This document shows, piece by piece, positions 6,490 through 48,125 of a stretch of DNA of 64,000 nucleotides. The notes beneath the pieces were generated by a model, which made no database searches, was not told the DNA's origin, and was given only the letters and a program-made list of their open reading frames with translations. Numbering within the stretch: the stretch's first letter is position 1; every line of letters starts with the position of its first letter. Made by a program: the position numbers and the translations under genes. This DNA comes from a bacterium (lineage in GTDB: Bacteria > Orphanbacterota > Orphanbacteria > Orphanbacterales > Orphanbacteraceae). The stretch covers positions 926,232 through 990,231 of the forward strand of contig JALGYY010000017.1 of assembly GCA_025782575.1 (NCBI GenBank). The letters run 5' to 3'.

Positions 6490-8378
6490 GCAGCGCCCCC
6501 AAACCTTTCGTTGCGCCTGAAAAATCGATCGCGGAAGCGACACTGATCGCCGTCGGTCTCGGCCTCGCGATCGGCCTGGTCATGACCGCCGCGAATACCT
6601 ATCTCGGGCTATACGCCGGAATGACCGTAAGCGCTTCGATTCCCGCCGCAGTCATCTCCATGGGGATTCTGCGGGGCATATTGAAGCGGGGCACGATCCT
6701 CGAAAACAACATCGTGCAGACCATCGCTTCCGCAGGAGAGTCGGTCGCGGCCGGAATCATCTTTACCGTGCCGGCGCTCGTGCTGACGGAAGCGTGGCAT
6801 AAATTCCATTACTGGCCAGTCACTCTGATCGGCATGCTCGGCGGCCTGCTCGGCGTGCTCTTCATGATCCCACTTCGTCGAGCGCTCATCGTGGAAGAAG
6901 AGGAGCTGATCTACCCGGAGGGGCTCGCCTGTGCGGAAGTACTCGAAGCGGGAGAACGGGGGGGCACCGGCCTGAAGACCGTTTTCGGCGCGATGGGTCT
7001 CGGTATGCTCTTCAAGACGATGATCGGAGGTGTGGCGATCATCAAGGGGACAGTCGAGTGGGCCACTCGGGCGGGCAACACGATTCTTTATATGGGAAGC
7101 GACCTCTCCCCCGCTCTGCTGGGCGTCGGATTTATCGTCGGCCCCAATGTGGCGACTCTCGTCTTTCTCGGCGGCGCCATCGGCTGGCTGATCGCGATTC
7201 CCATCTATGTCGCATCGAGCGGATTGATCGGCGTCACCGACTATGTCGCCCATGCCGGTTCGATCTGGGATGCCCAGATCCGTTATATGGGTGTGGGGGC
7301 GATGGTGGTGGGTGGCCTCTGGTCAATCTGGTCGGTTCGCCATGGTATTCGGAAAGGGATCCAGGGGGGGATCGGCGGTTACAAGGGCGAAACCGATGAG
7401 ACGGGCCGGGCCATTCGAACAGAGAGAGACATGCCCATGAAGCAGCTCGGGCTCATGCTGGCGCTCATTCTGCCGGCCGTTTTCGGCCTCTACATTTACC
7501 TGGCCAATGGCGTAATAATCGGCCTGCTCGCCGGCCTCATCATGACAGTGACCGGTTTCTTCTTCGTTGCGGTATCAAGTTATATCGTCGGACTCGTCGG
7601 CAGCTCGAACAACCCCGTTTCGGGGATGACGATCTGCACAGTGCTGTTCGCTTCGGGCCTCTTGCTCCTGTGCGGGCTTACGGGAACGACCGGAATCATA
7701 GCTGTGCTCGGTATTGCCGGCGTAGTCTGCTGCGCCGCCTGTACGGCGGGTGACGTATCCCAGGATCTGAAGACCGGCTGCATGCTGGGTGCCACGCCTG
7801 TCAAGCAGCAGTGGACTCAAGTTATCGGCGTGATAGTGCCCGCATTTATCGTCGCGCCGATTCTCATGGTGCTTCATCATTCGTACGGAATCGGCGATCA
7901 GCTCAGGGCGCCCCAGGCGACCCTATTCGCCAGCCTGACAAGCACCATGTTTAAGGGGGGAACGCTTCCCTGGGCCATGATCATTGCCGGTGCCGCGATC
8001 GGGATCGCCATTATTATCATCGATCTGATTCTGAAAAGCCGAGGCGCTTCTTTTCGCGCACATGTCATGCCTGTGGCGGTCGGTATCTATCTGCCCCTTT
8101 CTTTATCTGTTCCCATTCTCGTGGGCGGGCTGGCCAGCTATTTCGTCGCGCGAGCTGTTCGTGGCGGCGGGGAAAAGGCCATAAGTAACGCACAAAGCAA
8201 GGGCGTACTCTTCTCTTCCGGGCTCGTTGCCGGGGAGGCGATCACCGGAGTGATTCTGGCGACGCTGATCTTCTTCAACGTCAATCTGCCGATCCAGGTG
8301 TTCGACAGCTCCGCTCTTTCCCTGATTCTGTTCGCTGCGATCGTCGCTATTCTCATCCGGGCTTCGAGAAGAAATTAG
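6486..8378 (+). CDS. OPT-family oligopeptide/metal-chelate transporter
   Basis: About 630 residues of polytopic membrane protein. OPT hallmarks are visible: AANTYLGLYAGMTVSASIPA near residues 30-50, NNIVQTIASAGESVAAGIIF, then YPEGLACAEVLEAGE, and SSNNPVSGMTICTVL in the second half. OPT carriers import peptides or metal-siderophore complexes by proton coupling. I chose the TTG at 6486, which overlaps the DUF3179 stop (TTGA) and gives an N-terminus like family members; a GTG at 6438 is in frame but lacks a ribosome binding site. The overlap ties it to the sigma/anti-sigma/DUF3179 operon. The substrate cannot be read from sequence. Confidence 0.92.
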   Translation: MSSAPKPFVAPEKSIAEATLIAVGLGLAIGLVMTAANTYLGLYAGMTVSASIPAAVISMGILRGILKRGTILENNIVQTIASAGESVAAGIIFTVPALVLTEAWHKFHYWPVTLIGMLGGLLGVLFMIPLRRALIVEEEELIYPEGLACAEVLEAGERGGTGLKTVFGAMGLGMLFKTMIGGVAIIKGTVEWATRAGNTILYMGSDLSPALLGVGFIVGPNVATLVFLGGAIGWLIAIPIYVASSGLIGVTDYVAHAGSIWDAQIRYMGVGAMVVGGLWSIWSVRHGIRKGIQGGIGGYKGETDETGRAIRTERDMPMKQLGLMLALILPAVFGLYIYLANGVIIGLLAGLIMTVTGFFFVAVSSYIVGLVGSSNNPVSGMTICTVLFASGLLLLCGLTGTTGIIAVLGIAGVVCCAACTAGDVSQDLKTGCMLGATPVKQQWTQVIGVIVPAFIVAPILMVLHHSYGIGDQLRAPQATLFASLTSTMFKGGTLPWAMIIAGAAIGIAIIIIDLILKSRGASFRAHVMPVAVGIYLPLSLSVPILVGGLASYFVARAVRGGGEKAISNAQSKGVLFSSGLVAGEAITGVILATLIFFNVNLPIQVFDSSALSLILFAAIVAILIRASRRN

Positions 8379-30309: not shown

Positions 30310-32556
30310 TTAGTCAATATAACCCAGGGCGCGAAGCTCTTCCATCACGCTTTCCTCCCCCCCCGATCCCTCTGCCGCGTGTCCGGAACCGCCGCCGGTT
30401 CCGTCGTAGGATCTTACATATCGAACCGGTCGACCGTGCCGCCATTCGCCGTCCAATGCGTCGAGAATCGGCTTCCCTTCCCAGGCCAGCGAAAGTGGGA
30501 GCCCCATCAGATGGAAGAGGGTGGGCACTACATCGTAGACCGTCGCTCCCCGGACTCGTCCCCCCTGATTAGACGGCGTCCCGGCGAGGACGAATACTCC
30601 CCCCATCCTGTGATTTCCGGAGCGAGAAAACCGGGCGACCTCTTCTGTAATCGCCACAAGAGAGTCGCCAATCGCGATCTCTCCTCCCACGGCGCCCGCG
30701 TTGATCCTGCAAACGAGATCGCCGTTACTGTACCGGGTGCCCGCACGCTTCCCCATTTCCACAGATGAAAAAACGGCATCACCACCTGTGGTGCGGAGCC
30801 CGCCGAGCCGGTCGAGCATTTGGGCGATTAGTTTTTCATACTCGGTCCGCGAAACGGTCCCCGATGTGTGCCTGCCGACCAGGTTGACATGAATTCGAAG
30901 GGAATTCGTCTTCGCTTTGTCCCAGTGGGCAACGACTTTCGATCCGGCCCTGTCAATCCGATTGCCCTCCCCTTTCGCCCAACCGAGAAGACGGAGCAGC
31001 CGGCCTTCCTGCAGGTGGCTCTGCCGGTCATACGAGTAGCCGCTCGCATGGTCGGAGACCAGAAGGACCGCTGTATTCTCTCCGGATAGATCGAGAATCG
31101 AACCGATCTCCCTGTCGACGTAGCGCAGGTAAGCGTTCACGATATCGCCAAAAAACCCCATCTCCTGATCTGTCATTTCGAATAGACGGCTCGCCAGCCA
31201 GGGATCGTTTCTAGCTGCGTGATACTTGCGGAATTCGTGTTGCACCGTGTCGGTACCCCGGAAATAGACGGTGAGGAGATCGGGTTGACGCTTTCTCATG
31301 ATCCGTCTCGCCAGGGCGGACGTGACGAGATCCCGCAGATAGGACTGGTCGAGTATGTACATATCGAATCGACGGAGCGCGGCCGGGCCGTTCGAACCAA
31401 GGTCATCTTCGTCTTCATCCGGCACGTAGCTCGTCAGATCCAGGCGAAGCGCCGGCAGGCGCGACCGGAAGTCCGTGAGCAACGTGTCGAGTACCGGTTC
31501 CAGCTGCTCCGGAAACACTCGTCCTGTCACGTTGGGATAAGTGGCTCGATCGGACAGCATGATTCCGGGAATGGAGTCGACCGGCCATGATGGATACCAC
31601 GATAATAGGTCGACGGTGAGACCGAGACTCCCGATGATCTCCCAGAAAGTCGGTTGGAGACGGTGCTTGTTCGTTACCGGAATAAACCTGCCCGGCTGGC
31701 TCGATTCAGTGATGAATCCCTGGATACCATGATCTTCGGGGCGACGAGAAGTGGCGACGCTCGTCCAGACGACGGGTGATTCAATCGGCGGCAGGAGTGA
31801 ACGGAGCACGCCGCAACTTCCATTGGCAATCAGTCTGTCCAGGTTAGGGAGATCGCCGGTACCGAGAAGCGGTTTGATTGTCGGCCAGTCTATGCCATCC
31901 ACTGCGAACAGAATGATTTTGTGCGACGGTTCGCCGAAGGTCGGGTAGTCGATCAGTGATGCACGCCGCGCGCGGTTCTCCGTAACTATCGTAAGGGCAA
32001 ATAGAACGAGGAGACCGGAGAACACCAGAACAGGGATCCGGCGAGATCGGACGGGTTCGCGCAGGGGGAGGAGTCTGCCGGCGAGCCAGCCGACACCGGT
32101 TGCGAGAAGCAGCGCCGCCAGAAAGAAGGCCACCCAGAGCGGTTGCCACATGCGGGGGGGGACTTGAAGCGTCCGCACCATGACCGCCGGATAGAAAAAG
32201 AGCAGAAACGTGGCGAGTGTCGTGAGCGGGATCCGGAAACGCGTTCGTCTGCCGGGGCTGATCCGGAACGCCGCCGCCGCGATCTGAACGAGGAGACCGA
32301 GCGCTCCCCCGGCGAGTGCGCCCGAAAGAGCGTAAAGCAGAAAGAGAGGATAGGGGCGGTCGGCAAGTGAAGCGACTTCGCCCGGGACAATCGTCCGGAG
32401 CGCCTCGATCAGGAGGGCGTTCCCGGCGACCGTATAAGTCGAAAAGGGTATTTCCAGCAGGGCGAAGAAAAGCCCGGCAAGGGCGCCCGTAAGCAACCCC
32501 GCGGCGAGACCGGCCTGCAGGTATCGATCCTTGCTCATGCCGAGTGATGGTAACAT
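30310..32556 (-). CDS. Membrane-anchored AP-superfamily phosphodiesterase, tandem paralogue B
   Basis: 748 residues from ATG 32556 (ATG 32538 is an alternative). Same plan as the downstream paralogue: about five N-terminal membrane helices including FFALLEIPFSTYTVAGNALL, then the AP domain with ILFAVDGIDWPTIK, ESPVVWTSVATS (Thr nucleophile), RGTDTVQHEFRKY, VSDHASGYSYD and RSGNHRMGGVFVLAG. The two proteins share segments such as TSVATSRRPEDH exactly. The C-terminus is SVMEELRALGYID, again the shared tail. The gene is first of the minus-strand run 21.3-32.6 kb and divergent from the M28 peptidase gene. Confidence 0.83.
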   Translation of the reverse strand: MLPSLGMSKDRYLQAGLAAGLLTGALAGLFFALLEIPFSTYTVAGNALLIEALRTIVPGEVASLADRPYPLFLLYALSGALAGGALGLLVQIAAAAFRISPGRRTRFRIPLTTLATFLLFFYPAVMVRTLQVPPRMWQPLWVAFFLAALLLATGVGWLAGRLLPLREPVRSRRIPVLVFSGLLVLFALTIVTENRARRASLIDYPTFGEPSHKIILFAVDGIDWPTIKPLLGTGDLPNLDRLIANGSCGVLRSLLPPIESPVVWTSVATSRRPEDHGIQGFITESSQPGRFIPVTNKHRLQPTFWEIIGSLGLTVDLLSWYPSWPVDSIPGIMLSDRATYPNVTGRVFPEQLEPVLDTLLTDFRSRLPALRLDLTSYVPDEDEDDLGSNGPAALRRFDMYILDQSYLRDLVTSALARRIMRKRQPDLLTVYFRGTDTVQHEFRKYHAARNDPWLASRLFEMTDQEMGFFGDIVNAYLRYVDREIGSILDLSGENTAVLLVSDHASGYSYDRQSHLQEGRLLRLLGWAKGEGNRIDRAGSKVVAHWDKAKTNSLRIHVNLVGRHTSGTVSRTEYEKLIAQMLDRLGGLRTTGGDAVFSSVEMGKRAGTRYSNGDLVCRINAGAVGGEIAIGDSLVAITEEVARFSRSGNHRMGGVFVLAGTPSNQGGRVRGATVYDVVPTLFHLMGLPLSLAWEGKPILDALDGEWRHGRPVRYVRSYDGTGGGSGHAAEGSGGEESVMEELRALGYID

Positions 32557-36864: not shown

Positions 36865-37059
36865 CTACGAGATATAGCCGAGACCCTGCAGTTTCTTTTT
36901 GATTTCCTCTTCCGACGCCCCTTCTTCCACCGAGCTCAGCTCTTTCTCGAGGGCATGAACGACAAACTCATCGACCGAAGAATATCCGGCGATTTCCGCG
37001 TACTTCTTTACTCGGACGAACAGGTCCTTTGTCAGTTTGACTTTTGGTCCACCAAACAT
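36865..37059 (-). CDS. Small ribbon-helix-helix (CopG/Arc-like) protein with LGY tail, copy B
   Basis: 64 residues, ATG 37059 behind GGAG. Residues ~5-40 (PKVKLTKDLFVRVKKYAEIA, then GYSSVDEFVVHALEKEL) fit a ribbon-helix-helix DNA-binding domain: a short strand with alternating residues and two helices. The second half is an acidic linker and a helix ending in KKKLQGLGYIS. A paralogue of the same plan lies at 45933-46157 at the other end of the operon. RHH proteins bind DNA as dimers, usually repressing their own operon. No toxin gene is adjacent. Confidence 0.7.
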   Translation of the reverse strand: MFGGPKVKLTKDLFVRVKKYAEIAGYSSVDEFVVHALEKELSSVEEGASEEEIKKKLQGLGYIS

Positions 37060-37081: not shown

Positions 37082-39130
37082 CTAAAAAACGGAAGCGCCG
37101 ATCATGTCAGGCCCCTTCTCGATTCCGAAGAACTCGAGAATGGTCGCTGTCAGATCGTACAGCCTGGGATTCGGATTAGTTATCTCCCGGTTTACGATCA
37201 GAATTCCGGGTACGAGATCTTCGGCGATACAGTGATCACCGCTCCACTTGCCGGTATTGTCCCCGAACCACTCTATCGGGAATTCGCCGAGGGCCGATTC
37301 ATTCGATCCTCGATAGGTAAGCGCGTACCCGACATTCATGTCAGGAGCGTATTTTGCGAAGGCACCGGAATAGACATCGTCACTCTTATAGACTTCTTTG
37401 ATAGCGTACATACCGGTCACCGGATCTTCGATTCCCTTCAACTTCTGCACGAGTTCCTCGATCAACTCATCACGCTCCGCGCCAGGCGCCACTGTCCCGA
37501 ACTTCTCGCGCCCCCTCACGTTGATGTAAAGGCCGTTAATCCCGAGCGCGTAGGCCCGTGTGTTCTTCCAGTCCACATTCATGAAGAAGTCAGACGTTTC
37601 GCGCGCCGCCTGGGAAGGATCCTTGAGCGTCAGATAGCCATTATCGGCAAGCCAGGAATTCAGATGCATTTCCCGATACCACGGCGCGAATCCATGATCC
37701 GACATGACGACGATCGTCGCATCCCCTTCCAGTTCATCGAGGGCCACCCCGACCGCCTCATCGAGCCGCTTGAATATGTTGACCACCACGTCGGAGTGCT
37801 TGAGCGATTCTTCATCAGCCGCCGGATGGTTCGGATCGAACGCCCGCCACATCATGTGAGTCTGCTGGTCGAGACTGGAAAAATAGAAGAACAGGAAACC
37901 CCACTCTTCCTGTGCGAAATCCCTGATCATCGCTTCGAAGAGCATCATACGCTCATCGAGCACCATCCCCGCCTGGTGGATGTACTCGGAGTCATCGAAG
38001 ATGCCCCCTTCGAGAGCCTTGGAATCTTCGGGCATGCCCTGCGTGTAAAAACGGCCCAGTCGATCAGAGAGTTCGACCGACCAATTGTCGGGGGTCGAAA
38101 CAGGCTGCGCCGGATTGGCGGGATCGATCTGCACGGGCGTTACGTAGAGGCCGAACTGGGGGGAGACCGACCGGAGGTAGAGCCGGGCGATCCCGTTGAT
38201 CGCGAGCCCCATGGGAGCTGCGACCGGCTTCACCTTTGCGCCGAATCCTTCCTCGCCCAGCATGTAGTACTCCACCGGAACCCAGTCGCTCCATTCACCT
38301 TCGGCGAGTAGAACTTCCTCTCCGTCGCCGAGAACGATCTTTGCGGTCTTGTTCTCTTCATCTCGGTAGATGCGAATGGGGCACTCCGCCTTCTTCCCCT
38401 TCTGACTGAACGGATTCCCCGGCCCGGGGATTCCCCCTTTCGCCACACCACGATCGAAATAGATATCGATCACCTCGCCGCCGGAAATGTCGTCGGCATC
38501 CTCAGGAGGGTGTGTGGTGAAATAGGTAAACGTTCCGGGCGTCCCCTGCATATCAGGCGTACCCATCCCGGACAGCGATCTTGCTTCGCTTTCGGTCGGA
38601 GGATAATTCGCGGGGATCTTGAAGATCGTTGTCGGCACCCCGCCTTCGTCCAGATACTCCCAGAACGCTTTCCCCTCACGAAGATTAATGACTTCGCCGC
38701 CGCCGAGAGGGAGCTGCCAGTCCCCCCACAGCTTGATTGATTTATCCGAACCTACCGCCTCTGACGTGGACAGGTAGGGTAGATAGGTCTCCGGATCGCG
38801 ATGGATGAAATCGAAAATATTATGGCCACCCGGATTCTGGCCGGTAATAAAGTTCGACCACGCGACCGGGCTCTGGGGCGGAATGCTCGTGCCGAGAGTG
38901 GTGAACTCCCCGCTTGCGATGAGCCGCCGGAAGTTCGGCATATAGCCGGCGTCCAGATGTTCCCGAAGTTGCTTGGGATCCATGCCGTCCAGGCCGATCA
39001 CCACCATCTTCTTTTTCTCGGGAGCCGCCTCGCCCGGACTCGTGAGCATGGCGATCGCCAGGCCTCCCGTCAGAAGCGTTGCGATACCTGCGGGCTTCCA
39101 CCAGGACTTCACTATCTTGAGACTAACCAT
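37082..39130 (-). CDS. Exported AP-superfamily phosphodiesterase/sulfatase-like protein
   Basis: 682 residues. A single hydrophobic leader (IATLLTGGLAIAMLTSPGEAA) is followed by the AP domain: VVIGLDGMDPKQL, nucleophile region QSPVAWSNFITG (Ser rather than Thr), SSLDQQTHMMW, MSDHGFAPWY and WSGDHCIAEDLVPGI. All metal ligands look intact. The long central insert (~170-330) differs from the small members. The ATG at 39130 overlaps the upstream stop by 8 bases, so it is coupled to the related gene upstream. It belongs to the Sat/CysC operon. Extracytoplasmic, perhaps releasing phosphate, sulfate or a nucleotide from an envelope ester; the substrate is unknown. Confidence 0.83.
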   Translation of the reverse strand: MVSLKIVKSWWKPAGIATLLTGGLAIAMLTSPGEAAPEKKKMVVIGLDGMDPKQLREHLDAGYMPNFRRLIASGEFTTLGTSIPPQSPVAWSNFITGQNPGGHNIFDFIHRDPETYLPYLSTSEAVGSDKSIKLWGDWQLPLGGGEVINLREGKAFWEYLDEGGVPTTIFKIPANYPPTESEARSLSGMGTPDMQGTPGTFTYFTTHPPEDADDISGGEVIDIYFDRGVAKGGIPGPGNPFSQKGKKAECPIRIYRDEENKTAKIVLGDGEEVLLAEGEWSDWVPVEYYMLGEEGFGAKVKPVAAPMGLAINGIARLYLRSVSPQFGLYVTPVQIDPANPAQPVSTPDNWSVELSDRLGRFYTQGMPEDSKALEGGIFDDSEYIHQAGMVLDERMMLFEAMIRDFAQEEWGFLFFYFSSLDQQTHMMWRAFDPNHPAADEESLKHSDVVVNIFKRLDEAVGVALDELEGDATIVVMSDHGFAPWYREMHLNSWLADNGYLTLKDPSQAARETSDFFMNVDWKNTRAYALGINGLYINVRGREKFGTVAPGAERDELIEELVQKLKGIEDPVTGMYAIKEVYKSDDVYSGAFAKYAPDMNVGYALTYRGSNESALGEFPIEWFGDNTGKWSGDHCIAEDLVPGILIVNREITNPNPRLYDLTATILEFFGIEKGPDMIGASVF

Positions 39131-41336
39131 TCGCTATCTTCTCCTGAGGGGTGGGCTCGCGACGCTCTTCAGTCTGATCCGGCCGGAAGAATGACCGGCC
39201 CTGCATATGTCTCGGCGCGGCAATACCGAAGAGATCGAGCACCGACGCGGACATGTCAATAATGCACGGATTCTCACGGACGAGCCTCTTGCTCGAGAAG
39301 AGAATGCCGGGTACGAGCCGCCAATCCGTGCAATGGTCACCGCTCCACGCCTTCGGATTATCGTGGATCACCCGGCCGTCCGCTTTCCCGACCGCGGCGG
39401 CCCATGACTGCCTGTAGTTGTGATTGAAGCCGGGCAGCAGATCGGGACCATTCCCGACATATGGCCCGTCGTAGAGCTCGTTCGTAATAAAGACTTCCGT
39501 GATCGCCACATCATTGTTCCGCTCGGAATCGCGAAGCCCGGACAGCTTCTCTTTGATCTCCCGGCGTAATGCCTGAGCTTCTTCACCCGGTTCGACGATC
39601 CCCTGCCCTTCACGACCCTTGATATTCAGATAGATTCCGGTGAGACCGAAACTGTAGGCCTTTGTCTTCGACCAGTCGACGCCGCGAAACCAGTCGGAGC
39701 AATCTGTGCCGCCATCCTTCATATACATGTAGCCATTCTCGACGAGCCACGAATTCAGATTGAATCCCCGTGCGAACTGAGTGAATCCATGATCGGACAT
39801 CACCATCAGGACCGTCTTCTTGTCCTTCTCCGTGATTCTCATGATCCGCCCGAGCATCTCATCCATGCGCTCATAGAGATTGTCGATCGCTCCCTTGTGG
39901 ACTTCTGTATCCTGGCCTTGATTGGCGGGATGATCGTCGAGCTTGTATCGATGAAACATGTGCTGAATCCGGTCGGTTCCGTCGAACACGCAGACCAGCA
40001 GTCCTTTCCTGCATTGACTGAGAGCGTTGAAGAACATCTTCTCCCGCTCCTCATGCGTGAGCCAGGCCTGTTCCAGAAACGCCTGCTCATCGATCACCCG
40101 CTCATTCAGCCCCCAGGTATCCTCGCAGAACCCGAGTGTGGCGTAGCTTCCCTGCAGCTTCGAAAGATAAGTGGAATAATAGGCCGGATGGGAAATCGGC
40201 ATGGCCGGCTTCTCCGGGTCGATCTGCACCGGCGAAACATAAAGTTTAAAGTGAGGCGTCATCTCCATGACATAGAAGCGAACAAGTCCCCAGACTTTGA
40301 TTCCCAGCCCCGGCTTGAACGCCGTGCGGATCCAGGGGGAATACTCTTTAGGCTTCAGCGTGAATTTCTCACCATTAAACTCGAAGTGGGCAACCCCTTT
40401 GGCTTCATCAATCTTGATCTTGAACGGCTCTCGGAGCTCCTCGTTATCTTTCGACATCGAATTTTCGGGCCCGGGAACGTAGGCTTCGACTATGTCATTG
40501 ACCTTCTTGATACGGTATCGAACACCGCCGGTCGCTTCACCCAGTTCACTTTCATCGTCCGTATAATAGGTAAACGTCCCCTGGGATCCCTTGAGATCGG
40601 GAACGCACATCGCCGAGAGAAGAACCCCTTTGTGTTTTTCCGGCGGGAAAGTAATCGGCACTCGCAGTACATGCGAAAAAATGCCGTAATCGCCGAGAAT
40701 CCTCCAGAACGGCACCGACTTCCGGAGCATGCGGATCACCGGCTTGCCTAGAGGGATCTTGTATTTGCCGAGATTCAGCGTTCGGGAGACATTCCCGATA
40801 AAGACCGATGCGAGATCGGGCAGATAGGTTTTGGGATCGCGATTCAGGAAATCGAACTGGTTGTGCCTCGAGGGATCGACACCCGTAGCGAATGACGACC
40901 AGGCGACCGGGGACATGGCGGGCATCACGGTTTCGAGCTGCTGGAAATCGCCGCTCTCCGCGAGCTCCTCGAAGTTGGGCATTTTCCCTTCGTCCATGTA
41001 CTTCCGGCAATAGTTGGGATCGAGTCCGTCGAGTCCGACAATCACCACGCGTTCGGTGTCCGTTTTGGGCGCTCGTTTCTTGAAGATCAACTTCCAGAGG
41101 AAGCGGATCGGCCAGAGCAGGATCGAAGCCATCGCCAGTACGAACGTGACGAAGAAGACTGCGAATGAAGAGAGAAATGCAAAGCCCGCACCCGGCCCGA
41201 TGTACGCGTCTACCGGTGCCGGCGTGGCGGCGAAAAGTGCCACCAGCGCTACGAGAAAAAAGAGGCCCCGCGGAGCCGGAACAGAACCGGGCGCGATCTG
41301 TCCGCCCCATCCGCCCGTTCCTTTCAGTCTAGCCAC
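39123..41336 (-). CDS. Membrane-anchored AP-superfamily phosphodiesterase/sulfatase-like protein
   Basis: About 737 residues. The start is uncertain: a GTG at 41336 overlaps the upstream stop region, and a TTG at 41369 is also in frame. Two hydrophobic stretches (residues ~25-45 and ~50-80) are followed by the AP domain: VVIVGLDGLDPNY, MSPVAWSSFATG (Ser), FDGTDRIQHMFHRY, MSDHGFTQFARGF and WSGDHCTDWRLVPGI. It is closely similar to the product of the next gene, including the Ser active site and SGDHC motif, so the two are tandem paralogues that form a subgroup distinct from the Thr-type members. Part of the Sat/CysC operon. Confidence 0.83.
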   Translation of the reverse strand: MARLKGTGGWGGQIAPGSVPAPRGLFFLVALVALFAATPAPVDAYIGPGAGFAFLSSFAVFFVTFVLAMASILLWPIRFLWKLIFKKRAPKTDTERVVIVGLDGLDPNYCRKYMDEGKMPNFEELAESGDFQQLETVMPAMSPVAWSSFATGVDPSRHNQFDFLNRDPKTYLPDLASVFIGNVSRTLNLGKYKIPLGKPVIRMLRKSVPFWRILGDYGIFSHVLRVPITFPPEKHKGVLLSAMCVPDLKGSQGTFTYYTDDESELGEATGGVRYRIKKVNDIVEAYVPGPENSMSKDNEELREPFKIKIDEAKGVAHFEFNGEKFTLKPKEYSPWIRTAFKPGLGIKVWGLVRFYVMEMTPHFKLYVSPVQIDPEKPAMPISHPAYYSTYLSKLQGSYATLGFCEDTWGLNERVIDEQAFLEQAWLTHEEREKMFFNALSQCRKGLLVCVFDGTDRIQHMFHRYKLDDHPANQGQDTEVHKGAIDNLYERMDEMLGRIMRITEKDKKTVLMVMSDHGFTQFARGFNLNSWLVENGYMYMKDGGTDCSDWFRGVDWSKTKAYSFGLTGIYLNIKGREGQGIVEPGEEAQALRREIKEKLSGLRDSERNNDVAITEVFITNELYDGPYVGNGPDLLPGFNHNYRQSWAAAVGKADGRVIHDNPKAWSGDHCTDWRLVPGILFSSKRLVRENPCIIDMSASVLDLFGIAAPRHMQGRSFFRPDQTEERREPTPQEKIANG

Positions 41337-42660
41337 CGTTCGAATCCCCCTTGGTGAGCCTGTTCTCAATCACAGACGCAATCCCAGTAATATCAAAGGC
41401 CTCCGGCATTTTGTCCGGGCTCCATAGAAATGCGTCGTCCCAATTGTGCATCCCAGTGAAATGGCTCCTACCGAACGGATCGCCCGATCGATGCCACCCC
41501 TTTACATCATAGCCGTCATTTGCCACAAGGACCAGATCCGGACCACGGTGTTTCTCGGGGCCCGAGTAAAGATCAGCCCCCAGATGTCCCGCCTGAAAGA
41601 CCTTCTCCCCCTGATATTCGACAGCAAGCGCCTTTTCTCTAAGCTCCTCACAAAGGGGTCGGACCTCGTCGCTACGCACCCCACCCCGCGGGAATCGATC
41701 AGCCGTGTGAATGTAGATGCGAGTCGGATCGAGTGCGAGCGCCAGCGCCCCGGGCGCAATCTCTTCGAACCCGGTTGCATTGTCCGACCGGTAGGCGAGG
41801 TACCCCTCGTTTTCGAGCCAGGCGTTCAGGTAGAACTCCTCTTTGATCTCGGTGAAACCATGATCGGAGAGCGCGAAAAACCCGGCGCCGCTTTCATCAC
41901 CCGTCTTCTCGATATACCGGTCGAAGGCCCGCCCGAGAAACGCGTCGACATCGTGATAATAGTCCAGGAAGCGTTGATGATTCCCATGGGATTCGTCGAA
42001 CGCCCCATCCATCTGAAAGTGCATCAGCCGATCGGTTCCGGTGACGACGATCTCGAAGAGATCCCACTCTTTCTCCCAGAAGTAATCGAACGCCCGCTCC
42101 CGTCCTTCGAGCGTGGAACGCAACTGCTTGAAGAGAAAATCGGCGTCTTGCCCCCCCTTTCGGGAGTCCACGTCGATCTCGTAATCCATCTCGATCAATT
42201 TGTCATAGAGTGTAATCGGATGAACCGCTCGCTTCATGTCGATCGCGACGAAACCGGAGACGAGCATCCCCGGGATCGGCCTCGCCGGATAGGTAGACGG
42301 CTGATTGATTACAATCGAGCGCTTCCCCTTTTCGCCGAGCCTGTCCCAGAACGTCGATGCTTTCAGTTCGGGAAAAGAGGGAAAGCGGATATCGTAGCTT
42401 CGGGGTTTGAAGTCGGTGAATCCATAGACACCGTGGACGCCGGGGCCGGCGCCTGTCATGAAGCTCGTCCAGCTCACAGAAGAGACTTCCGGCAGGGTGA
42501 CTTTCATTCGATGCAGCGTGCCACGCTCGAAAATTTCCACCGCCCGAGGCATGACCCCCTCGTCCATGAACCGGCGGAGCAATTTATGCGGAACGCCATC
42601 GACGCCGAAGACACATGCCTTCGGCGCCGACTTCCCGCGCTTCAAAAACTTGAAAGCCAA
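41329..42660 (-). CDS. Cytoplasmic AP-superfamily phosphodiesterase-like enzyme
   Basis: 443 residues with no signal peptide or membrane helix (starts MAFKFLKRGKSAPKACVFGV). AP motifs are complete: VFGVDGVPHKLL, VSSVSWTSFMTG (Thr nucleophile), VTGTDRLMHF, LSDHGFTEI, and HFTGMHNWDDAFLWSPDK. Archaeal and bacterial relatives are annotated as nucleotide pyrophosphatase/phosphodiesterases. It is encoded 19 bases downstream of APS kinase. A cytoplasmic enzyme of this kind next to a PAPS-forming pathway could act on APS, PAPS or PAP, or on an ester made with them; this is inference. It lacks the LGY tail. Confidence 0.82.
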   Translation of the reverse strand: MAFKFLKRGKSAPKACVFGVDGVPHKLLRRFMDEGVMPRAVEIFERGTLHRMKVTLPEVSSVSWTSFMTGAGPGVHGVYGFTDFKPRSYDIRFPSFPELKASTFWDRLGEKGKRSIVINQPSTYPARPIPGMLVSGFVAIDMKRAVHPITLYDKLIEMDYEIDVDSRKGGQDADFLFKQLRSTLEGRERAFDYFWEKEWDLFEIVVTGTDRLMHFQMDGAFDESHGNHQRFLDYYHDVDAFLGRAFDRYIEKTGDESGAGFFALSDHGFTEIKEEFYLNAWLENEGYLAYRSDNATGFEEIAPGALALALDPTRIYIHTADRFPRGGVRSDEVRPLCEELREKALAVEYQGEKVFQAGHLGADLYSGPEKHRGPDLVLVANDGYDVKGWHRSGDPFGRSHFTGMHNWDDAFLWSPDKMPEAFDITGIASVIENRLTKGDSNGG

Positions 42661-42679: not shown

Positions 42680-43282
42680 CTAAAGATAGCCGAGGTCTTT
42701 GAGCCGCTGCTTGATCTTCTCCTCTTCCTCATCAGAGAAATCCTGCGAAGCGTCGGCACCGGGCACGAGTCCCATCAGTTCGAGAGTCCGAATGATTTTC
42801 TGGACACTCTCTTCCTCGCTCTCCTTGTCGGTTTCGACAAGAATCTCAGGATTCAAAGGCTCCTCGTACGGATCGTCCACGCCGGTAAAGCCCTTGATCT
42901 CTCCCGCGAGCGCCTTGGCGTAGAGCCCCTTTACGTCACGGTCGGTAAGAACTTCCAGAGGACACTTGCAGTAGACCTCTACAAAATTGTCGATCTTGTC
43001 GCGGTTCATATCGCGGATCTCACGATACGGGCTGATGGCCGAAGCGATCGACGCAACGCCGTTTCGGCTGAGGAGCTGGCAGACAAAACCGATCCGCTTG
43101 ATGTTCTCGTCACGATCTTCTTTCGAGAAGCCGAGCCCCTTCGACAGATTCGTGCGAATCACATCGCCGTCGAGAACCTCAACTTTGAGACCCCGCTCAC
43201 GCATGATGTCTTCCACCTGGCGGGCCAGGGTCGTCTTGCCGGAACCGGAAAGTCCGGTGAACCAGAGAGTAAAGCCTTTCAT
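42680..43282 (-). CDS. cysC: Adenylylsulfate (APS) kinase with LGY C-terminal tail
   Basis: 200 residues. P-loop GLSGSGKTT at residues 10-18, followed by the APS-kinase signatures [29 protein letters not shown] and [20 protein letters not shown]. It phosphorylates APS to PAPS with ATP in the cytoplasm. The normal enzyme ends near residue 175. Here about 25 residues are added: an acidic stretch ([12 protein letters not shown]) and a helix ending [12 protein letters not shown], matching tails of the RHH and AP proteins nearby. It is flanked on both sides by cytoplasmic AP-superfamily genes, with Sat one gene upstream. Confidence 0.96.
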
Positions 43283-43354: not shown

Positions 43355-44734
43355 TTAGAAGAGAGGCTCGCCGATCATCTGCTTCGGCTGATCGATATCG
43401 AAGTACTTCATGATTGTCGGAGCGATGTCATAAATCGAATAGGGGTCTTTGGCATTCGGAACGATTTTCGCCGGATGATCCCAGATGAATATGCCTTCCC
43501 AGTCGTGGTTCGTATCGTCGTGCTCCCCTTCGGTATCTTCGAGATGGAGTTCGCCTGAGCCGACCCGGCCTGCGGCGCGCCAACCAAGATTGCCGAAAAA
43601 GACGAGGAGGTCCGGCGCCACACCGGTCACTTCGGTGAACGTCTCCTCGGGATAGAGCACCTTCGTACCGATCGAATTTCCCGAAGGGCCGGCCACAGCT
43701 TCGAGCTTCTCTTTCAGCTCCCGCCGGAACCCGTCGGCCTCCCCTTCCGGGATCGTCCCCTTCGTCTCCCGGCCTTCGATATTCAGAAAGACGCGGCCAT
43801 AGTTCCCGCCGGTAGCCCACGCTTTCGTCTTCTTCCAGTCGATCATGTCGTGCGTGAGCGGCCCCGGCTCCTCCGGCTTCTTCTTCAGCTTGAGGAGCTT
43901 CTCCTGAATGAGCCACTCGTTCACGCATACCGACCCTTCGAGCCGCCGTGCGCCGTAGGCGGACGTGATCATGACCGATGTATCCTGCGGGAGGGAATCG
44001 AGCAGATTGCCGAGTTCCTCATCAAGAAACACATAGTAGTCATGGAGCGCCTCGGCGTGCCGGCTGTCAGGCACGAACTTGGGATGTTCCGGATCCATGA
44101 AGCGCCAGAACGCCCGCTGCATCCGGTCGGTGCCTACTTCCCCCAGCATCATGAAGTCGAACTCCTTCTGCTGGGCGTAGTATCGAAACGCCTCGAAACG
44201 GCGGCGCGTCATGTCCTTGATCTGCTCGATCAGCCAGTCTCTGGCGTCGGTGCGATAATCTTTCGTGTCGATGACGTAGTCGCCGCGCGCCACATTGTCC
44301 ACTTCACCCGCCGCTTCACGCGGGTGGGTCCATTGCACCGACTTGTTGGGCGTCAATATGCCGGAGACAAGAACACCCTTCATCGGCTTAGGAGGCCAGG
44401 TCTGCGGAACACCCATCACGAGCGAGTTCAGACGGAGCCGGGAGAGGTGGTTCCATATCGTTTTGCCGCGCACGTCCGTCGAATCGAGGGCCGTCATGGA
44501 ATCGTATTCTCTGCTCCCATGCCCATCGAACTCATAGAGGCCGAGCTGCCCCGGATCCTGGCCGGTCACCATCGACGTCCACGCGGGAATCGTCACAGGC
44601 GGAGTGGTCGATTGGAGCCTGCGATGAAGCCCATCGTCCATCACCGACTTGATGTTCGGCAAATCGTCTATCCATCGCTGGAAAACGAGTTCGGGGGGTG
44701 CGCCATCGAGTCCGATTAAAGCGAGACGACTCAT
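43355..44734 (-). CDS. Divergent cytoplasmic AP-superfamily protein, probable altered or lost metal site
   Basis: 459 residues, no signal peptide (starts MSRLALIGLDGAPPEL). The fold is clear: IGLDGAPPELV, VTIPAWTSMVTG (Thr), MLGEVGTDRMQRAFWRF, NEWLIQEKLLKLKK. However the usual SDHGF metal motif reads TSAYGARRLEG (Asp to Ala, His to Tyr), and the His after GTDxxQ is replaced (GTDRMQRAFW). Two of the normal metal sites therefore lack ligands, so it may be inactive and regulatory, or use a different centre. The C-terminal NHDWEGIFIW His is kept. It lies between sat and cysC, which argues for a role tied to PAPS formation. It lacks the LGY tail. Confidence 0.8.
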   Translation of the reverse strand: MSRLALIGLDGAPPELVFQRWIDDLPNIKSVMDDGLHRRLQSTTPPVTIPAWTSMVTGQDPGQLGLYEFDGHGSREYDSMTALDSTDVRGKTIWNHLSRLRLNSLVMGVPQTWPPKPMKGVLVSGILTPNKSVQWTHPREAAGEVDNVARGDYVIDTKDYRTDARDWLIEQIKDMTRRRFEAFRYYAQQKEFDFMMLGEVGTDRMQRAFWRFMDPEHPKFVPDSRHAEALHDYYVFLDEELGNLLDSLPQDTSVMITSAYGARRLEGSVCVNEWLIQEKLLKLKKKPEEPGPLTHDMIDWKKTKAWATGGNYGRVFLNIEGRETKGTIPEGEADGFRRELKEKLEAVAGPSGNSIGTKVLYPEETFTEVTGVAPDLLVFFGNLGWRAAGRVGSGELHLEDTEGEHDDTNHDWEGIFIWDHPAKIVPNAKDPYSIYDIAPTIMKYFDIDQPKQMIGEPLF

Positions 44735-44748
44735 TTGACCCTTCTCCT

Positions 44749-45900
44749 TTATTGATCCTTGTAGAACGACATGAGGAGCTCCGCCACCTCAGGACGAGTG
44801 AACTCGGGCGGAGGCATCTTGCCCTCGGCCAGCATGGCCCGTACTTTCGTCCCGCTCAGGAACACATGATCTTCCGATCCGTGTGAGCAGGTCTTCGACG
44901 ATGCCATATTGCCGCATTTCTTACAGAAGAACGAGTGATCAAAAAACATCGGCGTAATATCGATTTCGTAGCGATCGAATTCGGCGAAGATATAGTGCGC
45001 GTCGTACGTGCCGTAGTAGCTCCCTACGCCGGCGTGGTCACGGCCCACGATGAAGTGGGAGCATCCGTAGTTCTTGCGGACCAATGCATGAAATACCGCT
45101 TCCCTCGGGCCGGCATACCGCATCGCGGCCGGAAAGATGGAAAGGGCGGTCCTGGTGGACGGATAGTAATTCTCGAACAGGATCTTGTAGCACTCCATCC
45201 GGATCTCAGCCGGGATGTCCCCCTTCTGAGTCTCACCGACCAGCGGGTGAACGAGCAGCCCGTCCACGATCTCGAGGGCGCACTTCTGCAGGTACTCATG
45301 AGCCCTGTGGATCGGATTGCGGGTCTGGAAGGCGACAATCGTCTCCCACCCTTTGGCCTTGAACAGAACGCGCGTCTCTTTGGGATCGAGCCGGAAATTC
45401 TCAAATCGATTGTGCTGGGGCCGCTTGAGAAGCGAGATCGTGCCGCCAAGGTACGTGCCTATGATCGTGTCGAGATAGCGAACGCCCGGATGAGCATCAT
45501 CGTTCGTCAGGAGTACTTTGGAGGCCTCCTGCTGCTTGTCGACTCCGTATTTCTCCTCGAGGTCCATCACGGCGAGAATTTCACCATCCGATTCGACGAG
45601 GGCGATCTGATTCCCCTCGACGAACTCATCGCCGTCACCCTCTTTCACCGCAAGCACCACCGGAATCGTCCAGGGGAGCCCTTTGGCAAGACGTTTGAGG
45701 TCGAGCACGGAAAGATAGTCTTCCCGGCCCATGAAGCCTTCCAGGGGGCTCATGGCCCCGATGGCGATCATCTCGAGATCGGCGGTCTCCCGATCGTTCA
45801 GCGTGAGCTTCGGGAGAGAAGGAGCGAGGGATTCCAGCTGTTCGCGCTCCTTGCCCTCCGCGATGCGGTTGATCAGTTTTCCGCCGTGTGCCTTGATCAT
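44749..45900 (-). CDS. sat: Sulfate adenylyltransferase (ATP sulfurylase)
   Basis: 383 residues. The catalytic FQTRNPIHRAHE motif is at ~190-201 (HxxH), with GRDHAGVGSYYGTYDAHYIF and the zinc-binding CKKC...TC.HG segment followed by SGTKVRAMLAEGKMPPPEFT. Length and order match the Sat family of bacteria and archaea rather than CysDN. It makes APS from ATP and sulfate in the cytoplasm. No APS reductase (AprAB) or sulfite reductase gene is present in the window; instead APS kinase is in the same operon, pointing to PAPS production. It is 32 bases downstream of the first RHH gene. Confidence 0.97.
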   Translation of the reverse strand: MIKAHGGKLINRIAEGKEREQLESLAPSLPKLTLNDRETADLEMIAIGAMSPLEGFMGREDYLSVLDLKRLAKGLPWTIPVVLAVKEGDGDEFVEGNQIALVESDGEILAVMDLEEKYGVDKQQEASKVLLTNDDAHPGVRYLDTIIGTYLGGTISLLKRPQHNRFENFRLDPKETRVLFKAKGWETIVAFQTRNPIHRAHEYLQKCALEIVDGLLVHPLVGETQKGDIPAEIRMECYKILFENYYPSTRTALSIFPAAMRYAGPREAVFHALVRKNYGCSHFIVGRDHAGVGSYYGTYDAHYIFAEFDRYEIDITPMFFDHSFFCKKCGNMASSKTCSHGSEDHVFLSGTKVRAMLAEGKMPPPEFTRPEVAELLMSFYKDQ

Positions 45901-45932
45901 GATGTCCTTTCCATCGCCCGGATTTGCGGGCT

Positions 45933-46157
45933 TTATTCCAGGTAACCCAGGTTCTTCAGTTTCTGACGGATGCCGCTCAACTCCTCCTGCGAAAAGGTAT
46001 CGTTGTTCGTTTCCGCCGCCGCCGTCGCCCCCACCAGATCGCGGAGGACGTAGACTATGAAATCGGTAGGCGAGCTAAACCCTGATTCTTCAATGATTTC
46101 TGCGATCCTCCGGTAAAGGGGGCGCGGAATCTTGATGGTGACCCGGTTCTCTTTCAT
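45933..46157 (-). CDS. Small ribbon-helix-helix regulator with LGY tail, copy A
   Basis: 74 residues, start ATG 46157. Residues 1-45 (VTIKIPRPLYRRIAEIIEES, GFSSPTDFIVYVLRDLV) are a typical ribbon-helix-helix DNA-binding domain. The remaining ~30 residues are an acidic linker and a helix ending IRQKLKNLGYLE, the tail shared with CysC and AP proteins. It is the first gene behind the promoter at 46228-46256, and three tandem 11-bp repeats lie between promoter and start codon, so it is likely the operon's autoregulator. Confidence 0.8.
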   Translation of the reverse strand: MKENRVTIKIPRPLYRRIAEIIEESGFSSPTDFIVYVLRDLVGATAAAETNNDTFSQEELSGIRQKLKNLGYLE

Positions 46158-46175
46158 CCGACCTTGGCTCCAGTA

Positions 46176-46209
46176 AGACTCTAATCAGACTCTAATCGCA
46201 CTCCAATAT
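46176..46209 (-). promoter_or_regulatory. Tandem 11-bp repeats, candidate RHH operator
   Basis: On the + strand AGACTCTAATC occurs twice head to tail (46176-46186, 46187-46197), followed by a degenerate third copy GCACTCCAATA. On the transcribed strand the unit reads GATTAGAGTCT. The 11-bp period places copies on one face of the helix, as RHH dimers often require. The repeats lie about 12-45 bases after the predicted transcription start, where a bound repressor would block transcription. Confidence 0.6.
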
Positions 46210-46227
46210 GACTACCACAAGGCTCAG

Positions 46228-46256
46228 ATCATAGCCATATGCCGCGCCCCTGTCAA
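46228..46256 (-). promoter_or_regulatory. Sigma70-type promoter of the RHH-sat-cysC-AP operon
   Basis: On the minus strand TTGACA (46256-46251) and TATGAT (46233-46228) are separated by exactly 17 bases. The -35 is the full consensus and the -10 matches 5 of 6. Transcription would start near 46221 and read into the RHH gene at 46157. The promoter lies in the 114-base gap behind the glycosyltransferase gene. Confidence 0.75.
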
Positions 46257-46271
46257 TTCAGAATTTGGAAT

Positions 46272-48125
46272 TCAGCGAATGGGGGGAAGGAGAATCGTAA
46301 CGGGGGAGTCCTCATCATGCTGGTAGATCGTCCGCCAGGATTCCAATTCGGCCTGGATGGCGCTGCTCTTGTAGAAGACCATCTGGGTAAAGTCGTCGAG
46401 CACGACCGCCCCCGGGGGGTTGTTCCGAAAATAGTCGTAGGTAAAATCGGCCCACTCGCCATCCACTTCCTCTCGAAAAGACCCGAGCGGATGGTTCAGC
46501 CTCAGAAAGGGCATTCTCCCGGCCGCGTAGGACCAGATCATCCCGCCTGACATGACTTCCTCGTCCGGTTCCGTCTGCGCCTTGATGATCTCCACCACCT
46601 CCCGTACCAGATCCGGATGCCACGGTGCCTGGTAGCTGACTCCCCCTTTAGTCATGGTGGTATTGGCTGAGAAGATTAAGCCGAACAGAGTTACGCCCAC
46701 CAGCATCCGGCCGGCGATCGCTTCCCTGGCAGCGTAGAGGGAAAGCACCGTTGCCATGATAAACAGGGCGAGTCCCACGAGTAAGGTCTGGGCAGGACTG
46801 ATCCCGCTAAGGGGCGCCCCGGCGCGTCGGAGTGCGAACAACAGAAGAAGCAGCCCGGTACCGAGGACGAGCGAGATGGTCCCGTGCCGGCGCATGGCGA
46901 AGGGCGCAGCCAACAGGACCAGCATGATGAAGGCCGCCCCACCCGCCAGTGTCAGGCTCTCAATCCAGACAGGCATCCGGTCGGAAATGGTAAGAACACC
47001 CCCTGCCAGCAGAATGGCGGCGACCCCTGCGTGGAGCCAGCCGAAACTGCATTGCCTGCCTGCGGCCGCGAGACCGGCACCGCCAATAATTGCGAGGAGT
47101 GGTTCGAATTCGCGGGCATATCCGGGAAAGAATCCGCGAGCGTACATCCAGTAACCATAGAATGCCGCGAGCGTCATAATACTGATCAGCAGCATTCGCA
47201 AGACGCGTTTCGAAGTCTCGCCTGTCTTGATTCCCAGACGGGTAATCGCGGTAACGGCCGCTACCAGGATGAGGGGCATGATCATCTTGAAAGTAACCGC
47301 AAGATAGAGACCGCTGCTCGGCCTCCCCAGTGTCTCGATCACTTCGGTACCGGCAGCTGAAACATCCTGGGTGGTTTGGGAGAGCGCCGCTCCCAGAAAG
47401 CCTTCAACCGCCTCGAGACCAAGGGCGATCGGATTCAGCCTGTTGTGCCACATCGCTTCGAAGCTCAGCCAGCGGCCGAAGTATGCGAACACGAGAACCA
47501 CGATGGCGAGAAACCCGCAGACGAGCGGCCCGCCGAGCCTGAGAACGCCCCCTCTTTTGCGCTCGAAGACAATAAGATAGATCATGAGGGCCAGAGCGAC
47601 GGCAAGAGCGGATTCACGCACATAGAATCCGCAGGCGAGAAGTACTCCGGCAGCGAGATAGGTCCTGCTCGTAGCCGACGTTGCCGCCAGAACGGCAGCG
47701 AGGGTCAGGCACATGACGATCGGCTGGGTCTGGACCGCTGTCGAATAGTGGACGGTGAGGGACGAGAATAGAAACAGCCCGGCTGCCACCGGGCCGGCGG
47801 GGGGACCACCGATCATGCGGGCGGCCCGGGAGACCAGAATCGCTGTGGTCAGCGTGAACAGCATCGATACGATTCGGCCGGATGTGAGCGTCTGTCCCAG
47901 AACCGCCTGGAACAGAGCGTGTATGTAACAATAGAGAGGTTGTCTCGAACCGTAGTCGACGAACGGCACTTCCCCGAAGAGGATCCTTTTGGCGCTCATG
48001 AGATGAGCCCCTTCATCGGGAGAGATCCACCGATGGGGGATCAACCAGACATAAAGCGCTATGGCGATGGAAAATATTGCCCCGTAGGCCGCCCAATAGG
48101 AATAGTTTTGTTTCTGTTCGCCCAT
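46272..48125 (-). CDS. GT-C fold glycosyltransferase (GT39/ArnT-like) membrane protein
   Basis: About 617 residues from ATG 48125 behind AGGGG; the frame extends to 48164. About a dozen membrane helices span the protein. The first periplasmic loop has the acidic motif WISPDEGAHLMSAKRILFG, typical of the catalytic Asp of polyisoprenyl-phosphate-sugar-dependent GT39/PMT enzymes. The C-terminal ~120 residues form a soluble domain (DLVREVVEIIKAQTEPDEEV). Such enzymes transfer a sugar from a lipid carrier to protein, lipid A or glycan on the outer face of the inner membrane. It lies upstream of the Sat operon, which has its own promoter, so joint function is only suggested. Confidence 0.82.
   Translation of the reverse strand: MGEQKQNYSYWAAYGAIFSIAIALYVWLIPHRWISPDEGAHLMSAKRILFGEVPFVDYGSRQPLYCYIHALFQAVLGQTLTSGRIVSMLFTLTTAILVSRAARMIGGPPAGPVAAGLFLFSSLTVHYSTAVQTQPIVMCLTLAAVLAATSATSRTYLAAGVLLACGFYVRESALAVALALMIYLIVFERKRGGVLRLGGPLVCGFLAIVVLVFAYFGRWLSFEAMWHNRLNPIALGLEAVEGFLGAALSQTTQDVSAAGTEVIETLGRPSSGLYLAVTFKMIMPLILVAAVTAITRLGIKTGETSKRVLRMLLISIMTLAAFYGYWMYARGFFPGYAREFEPLLAIIGGAGLAAAGRQCSFGWLHAGVAAILLAGGVLTISDRMPVWIESLTLAGGAAFIMLVLLAAPFAMRRHGTISLVLGTGLLLLLFALRRAGAPLSGISPAQTLLVGLALFIMATVLSLYAAREAIAGRMLVGVTLFGLIFSANTTMTKGGVSYQAPWHPDLVREVVEIIKAQTEPDEEVMSGGMIWSYAAGRMPFLRLNHPLGSFREEVDGEWADFTYDYFRNNPPGAVVLDDFTQMVFYKSSAIQAELESWRTIYQHDEDSPVTILLPPIR

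Follow-up and report, generated by a model that had tools for sequence, protein, structure and literature searches.

The window, by which we mean the whole stretch of 64,000 nucleotides analysed here, carries on its minus strand an operon with the gene order RHH1, Sat, AP1, CysC, AP2, AP3, AP3-like and RHH2, which is probably transcribed as one unit, judging from strand and spacing. Around the promoter lies an array of 11-bp units, which were counted as matches out of 11 to the degenerate consensus RATYRGAGTGY and scored with a matrix derived from RHH1 loci. The features are as follows.

46251 to 46256, minus strand: -35 hexamer TTGACA, from the promoter scan
46228 to 46233, minus strand: -10 hexamer TATGAT, in the 11-bp register of the array, 7 nt before a GGAG position, modulo 11
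46220 to 46230, minus strand: weak putative operator unit GATCTGAGCCT, overlapping the -10 box (10/11, matrix score 5.0)
46209 to 46219, minus strand: very degenerate unit TGTGGTAGTCA, in register, which may not be a site (6/11, matrix score -11.2)
46198 to 46208, minus strand: strong putative operator unit TATTGGAGTGC (matrix score 15.4)
46187 to 46197, minus strand: strong putative operator unit GATTAGAGTCT (matrix score 13.2)
46176 to 46186, minus strand: strong putative operator unit GATTAGAGTCT (matrix score 13.2)
46165 to 46175, minus strand: weak unit TACTGGAGCCA, just upstream of the RHH1 start codon (8/11, matrix score -1.1)
45933 to 46157, minus strand: RHH1, 74-aa protein, very likely of the ribbon-helix-helix (RHH) type, and proposed repressor, with conserved ribbon VT(I/V)KIPRPLY and C-terminal KLKNLGYL
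44749 to 45900, minus strand: Sat, sulfate adenylyltransferase, second gene of the operon (family matches)
43355 to 44734, minus strand: AP1, alkaline-phosphatase-superfamily protein (Phosphodiest, PF01663; family match)
42680 to 43282, minus strand: CysC, adenylylsulfate kinase with a C-terminal RLKDLGYL tail (family matches)
41329 to 42660, minus strand: AP2, Phosphodiest protein (family match)
39123 to 41369, minus strand: AP3, Phosphodiest protein (family match)
37082 to 39130, minus strand: AP3-like Phosphodiest protein
36865 to 37059, minus strand: RHH2, 64-aa homologue of RHH1 without the conserved DNA-contact ribbon but with the LGY tail (profile-profile comparison)

The near-perfect promoter described in the earlier note, TTGACA-17-TATGAT on the minus strand (46256-46228), was recovered with 11 of 12 consensus matches and is the sole promoter-like match within 44000-48000. 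Taken alone it is not decisive, because chance yields 1.4 matches of at least 9/12 in such a scan. The array reads, on the plus strand, AGACTCTAATC at 46176-46186 and again at 46187-46197, followed by GCACTCCAATA at 46198-46208. The two exact copies and the one degenerate copy noticed earlier are thus as stated, but three is an undercount, as weaker units in register flank them. Read on the minus strand in 11-nt steps from the -10 box to the RHH1 start, the sequence is TATGATCTGAG CCTTGTGGTAG TCATATTGGAG TGCGATTAGAG TCTGATTAGAG TCTTACTGGAG CCAAGGTCGG ATG. Since the flanking units share the 11-bp register, it extends from the -10 box as far as the ribosome-binding region, and the GGAG of the unit at 46165-46175 may double as the ribosome-binding sequence. 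Only the central three units can be called strong, because the matrix scores of the flanking ones are low. The window array consists of direct repeats only. With a matrix trained without the window locus, the three tandem units (46208-46176) score 41.5, against a mean of -29.7 and a maximum of -0.06 in 2000 dinucleotide shuffles; the runner-up place in the 64-kb window, outside the array, scores -1.9.

Scans of genome contigs and whole genomes identified RHH1 relatives in records titled Planctomycetota, Candidatus Eisenbacteria, Krumholzibacteriia, Omnitrophota and Sumerlaeota. The 300 bases upstream of 68 RHH1 loci share a single motif, GATYGGAGTGY, whose AT and GAG positions hardly vary, and an array is found upstream of the RHH1 gene in 63 of the 68 loci, each beating all 100 of its own shuffles. 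Because the matrix and the 68 loci were fitted jointly, weight falls on a separate test with loci fetched later, in which 22 of 26 possess an array at p <= 0.01; as two of these, L128 and L148, duplicate the training loci L075 and L069 (same coordinates), the fair held-out figure is about 21 of 24. The proposal of a typical autoregulated RHH operator gains support from these counts, and the homologous operons, where a lack of repeats had been named as the evidence that would count against it, have for the most part kept them. No convincing array could be discerned beside RHH1 in L017, nor in L163, L171 and L172, where RHH1 occurs without neighbouring Sat or CysC, and the arrays of L011 and L012 are weak. 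When each unit must reach a matrix score of at least 6, 21 of the 68 loci have no adjacent unit pair; the shuffle test is judged fairer than this single-unit demand because it sums the unit scores. An observation in favour of the operator, though a weak one, comes from G007/L123: Sat comes first there, RHH1 has an internal position, and the highest-scoring inverted site within 9 kb lies at the Sat promoter.

The geometry of the units is also conserved. In the 68 loci the spacings of same-strand units peak at 11, 22 and 33 bp and the offsets of opposite-strand units at 7, 18, 29 and 40 (7+11k), matrix training having taken no account of spacing; direct and inverted units therefore lie on one 11-bp ruler. 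Units are often inverted around a centre of the form CACTCC-RATY-GGAGTG, and such centres are also visible by eye, outside the script scoring, in L164 and L166. The -10 box falls in the array register in 38 of 49 loci, an agreement that is to some extent inherent, since the GAT within each unit looks like the last bases of a -10 box, and the distances from the -10 box to GGAG in the window's family are 7, 18, 29 or 40 (41 once).

RHH1 is very likely a member of the ribbon-helix-helix (MetJ/Arc/CopG) superfamily, each single test being sub-threshold. In Pfam and NCBIfam no model reaches its own cut-off with RHH1 (Pfam RHH_1 gives 17.0 bits, under the 20.5 cut-off), and among the sequences of solved structures there is no significant relative, the nearest PDB match being NikR 2bj1 at a sub-threshold E of 0.029. 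The AlphaFold monomer (pLDDT 79.9) has an N-terminal extended stretch followed by helices at 12-22 and 30-52, and several RHH entries are among the top Foldseek matches of this model, none at E <= 0.001. Arc, MetJ, CopG and NikR share the RHH fold and repress by operator occlusion; RHH1 would resemble them in its probable RHH fold and in the occlusion proposed here, but has no significant sequence relation to them. Identity with NikR was rejected, as RHH1 has only 74 aa, scores 14.9 with NCBIfam PRK01002 against a cut-off of 111, and has the LGY tail in place of the nickel-binding C-terminal domain. The ribbon residues T7, K9, P11 and R12 are invariant in 49 RHH1 sequences.

Neighbours of RHH1 at the other loci were identified by querying them with the window's proteins in tblastn, because simple ORF calling gave wrong strands in GC-rich loci. 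The operons of Omnitrophota and Sumerlaeota are without Sat but keep CysC and AP proteins. CysC (APS kinase) occurs with AP proteins and without Sat at L068, L071, L075 and L076, which poses the question of where its substrate comes from.

RHH1 is a single-copy gene: all 50 genomes in which it was found have a single match, and it is present in 7 of the 7 genomes searched from the window's phylum. The exact 11-mer has 2 copies in the 4.88-Mb genome, both in the window array. A scan of this genome, which the earlier note had proposed as a way to find a regulon, led instead to a single target: single-mismatch unit copies number 28 (the 2 of the window array included) against 15 for a reversed-pattern control, the others not being tandem, and the tandem pattern gives 3 matches in the window array and 8 single-mismatch ones elsewhere against 5 for the control. 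A regulon was rejected, since the scattered copies are not far above the control and not tandem. In 28 genomes the strict tandem pattern matches almost only at the RHH1 locus, and in 20 genomes the inverted-centre pattern matches at RHH1 loci only. Among 294 Planctomycetota, a strict two-unit pattern is present in 16 of 30 genomes with RHH1, in all 16 at the RHH1 locus, versus 7 of 264 genomes without RHH1 (Fisher 2.6e-13), each of these 7 with one match containing a mismatch. To judge from these patterns, the circuit is a single-target operator serving one operon and not a regulon. One of the 16 genomes, G064, has in addition a single two-unit site with one mismatch that is not at the RHH1 locus (contig C80, 116067-116084; locus L096); it may be a second target or chance.

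Two known systems show comparable arrays. The omega protein (ParB of pSM19035) is an RHH repressor of 7-bp WATCACW units, direct or inverted, which overlap promoters including its own; one dimer binds each unit, and tight binding needs two or more units (PMC9499535, PMC4803016). The RHH1 array likewise has many short direct or inverted units over its own promoter, but its period is 11 bp rather than 7 bp and its core GATYGGAGTGY rather than WATCACW; omega, moreover, is plasmid-encoded, controls several promoters and has a ParA partner, whereas RHH1 serves one chromosomal operon. ParR of plasmid R1 needs at least two 11-bp direct repeats (PMC9426499), and parC shares with the present array an RHH protein and 11-bp direct repeats around a promoter; ParR/parC, however, acts in segregation with the actin-like ParM, and RHH1 belongs to a metabolic operon. 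RHH1 was assigned to neither family, because the period or core and the partner genes differ: the array has a GGAGTG core and no 7-bp WATCACW heptads, and its neighbours encode Sat, CysC and Phosphodiest proteins and no ParM. By analogy, RHH1 would represent an unnamed family that works like the omega and ParR arrays. Among the papers searched, none links RHH with Sat and CysC, or RHH with 11-bp direct repeats and an operator.

As in an autoregulated RHH operator, the repeat array overlaps the promoter of the RHH gene's own operon, and it is highly probable, from sequence comparison, that the array is the operator of RHH1, whose dimers would bind it cooperatively and repress this single operon. 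RHH1 itself (45933-46157) is the likely binder. Its dimers would contact the asymmetric GGAGTG core of each 11-bp unit in turn, every helical turn carrying one dimer and all dimers sitting on one face of the DNA, with cooperative contacts between neighbours like those of omega, ParR or MetJ on their own arrays. Once occupied, the row would cover the -10 box and the transcription start, and in the window also the leader up to the ribosome site, so that RNA polymerase would be shut out and RHH1 would repress its own gene together with Sat, AP1, CysC, AP2, AP3, AP3-like and RHH2. Cooperative binding that excludes polymerase is suggested by the registered -10 boxes, by the strong units downstream of the -10 box in the window, and by the unvarying ribbon opposite an almost unvarying core; the position of the array argues for repression rather than activation. 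The earlier expectation that the repeats explain how the operon is switched is satisfied as to the location of the switch, at the RHH1 promoter, but the effector was not found.

It is improbable that RHH2 or a mixed RHH1-RHH2 dimer is the main DNA binder, or that RHH2 is an anti-repressor pulling RHH1 off the array. RHH2 is encoded in the same operons, and its full-length homology to RHH1, the LGY tail included, is backed by a profile-profile probability of 97.9% at E 4.8e-13; the ribbon region of RHH2, however, reads KVKLTKDL where RHH1 has VTIKIPRPL, without the invariant RHH1 residues, and the array accompanies the RHH1 gene even in L169 (1498-1920), where RHH1 is divergent from Sat-CysC and the array lies in the shared intergenic region. 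An equally small chance is given to RHH1 as an activator, whose upstream-bound units would recruit polymerase to promoters with poor -35 boxes. In many Planctomycetota promoters a -35 box cannot be recognised and units precede the -10 box, and activation is conceivable there because the -35 regions are non-consensus. In the window and its family, by contrast, both hexamers come close to consensus, and it is downstream of the -10 box, where a bound protein would block initiation, that the strong units are located. Repeats acting as RNA, through leader hairpins or as additional ribosome-binding sequences and not as protein sites on DNA, are very improbable: CACTCC-RATY-GGAGTG would form a hairpin and the last window unit stands shortly before the start codon, but the window has direct repeats only, shuffled versions of its leader fold just as well (z 0.43), the array-to-start-codon distance in Planctomycetota varies from about 20 to 230 nt, and part of the array there is not transcribed because the -10 box often lies inside it. 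Finally, a partition centromere or toxin-antitoxin operator (ParR/parC- or ParD/CopG-like) standing by chance beside metabolic genes, as the RHH protein and R1-like 11-bp repeats near a promoter might suggest, can be dismissed almost entirely, for across many phyla array and RHH1 keep company with Sat/CysC/AP genes (two of the contigs being complete chromosomes), RHH1 has no recurrent ParM/ParA or toxin neighbour among the loci seen, the gene following it is Sat, and PADLOC gave no toxin family and no relevant defence match for seven operon proteins.

A motif LxxLGY(L/I/V) ends RHH1 (KLKNLGYL), CysC (RLKDLGYL), RHH2 (KLQGLGYIS) and several phosphodiesterase/sulfatase-like proteins of the window, among them those of the minus-strand ORFs ending at 30310, 28033 and 24552. 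Among RHH1 and RHH2 proteins the tail hardly varies, and it was not seen on the CysC proteins of Planctomycetota loci. It is a tentative idea, and rather an unlikely one, that the repressor senses the products of its own operon through this tail common to regulator and enzymes. Should a common partner dock on the tail, the quantity of RHH1 available for the array could depend on how much free enzyme tail there is, or on how much ribbon-less RHH2 pairs with RHH1, which would amount to feedback. In L025 a divergent neighbouring gene (6572-7090) encodes a short protein whose start looks like a secretion signal and whose end, LGYxGD, is similar to the LGY tail; comparable minus-strand ORFs occur in many Planctomycetota loci. 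In the archaeal Candidatus Nanosalinarum (L083, 8001-8186), an RHH-like protein with a KLKNLGYL tail is located beside an AP-like protein, and no operator array was noticed upstream.

In all probability the array is the switch by which RHH1 controls its own operon, one that is uncharacterised. An operator that serves a single-operon repressor would be expected to diverge fast, yet here the core, the 11-bp register and the inverted centre can still be recognised in five or more phylum-level groups. GATYGGAGTGY arrays therefore offer a sequence handle on a widely kept operon that joins sulfate activation with enzymes of the alkaline phosphatase superfamily, and the proposed circuit makes a clear prediction for the bench, which needs a 74-residue protein and 70 bp of DNA.
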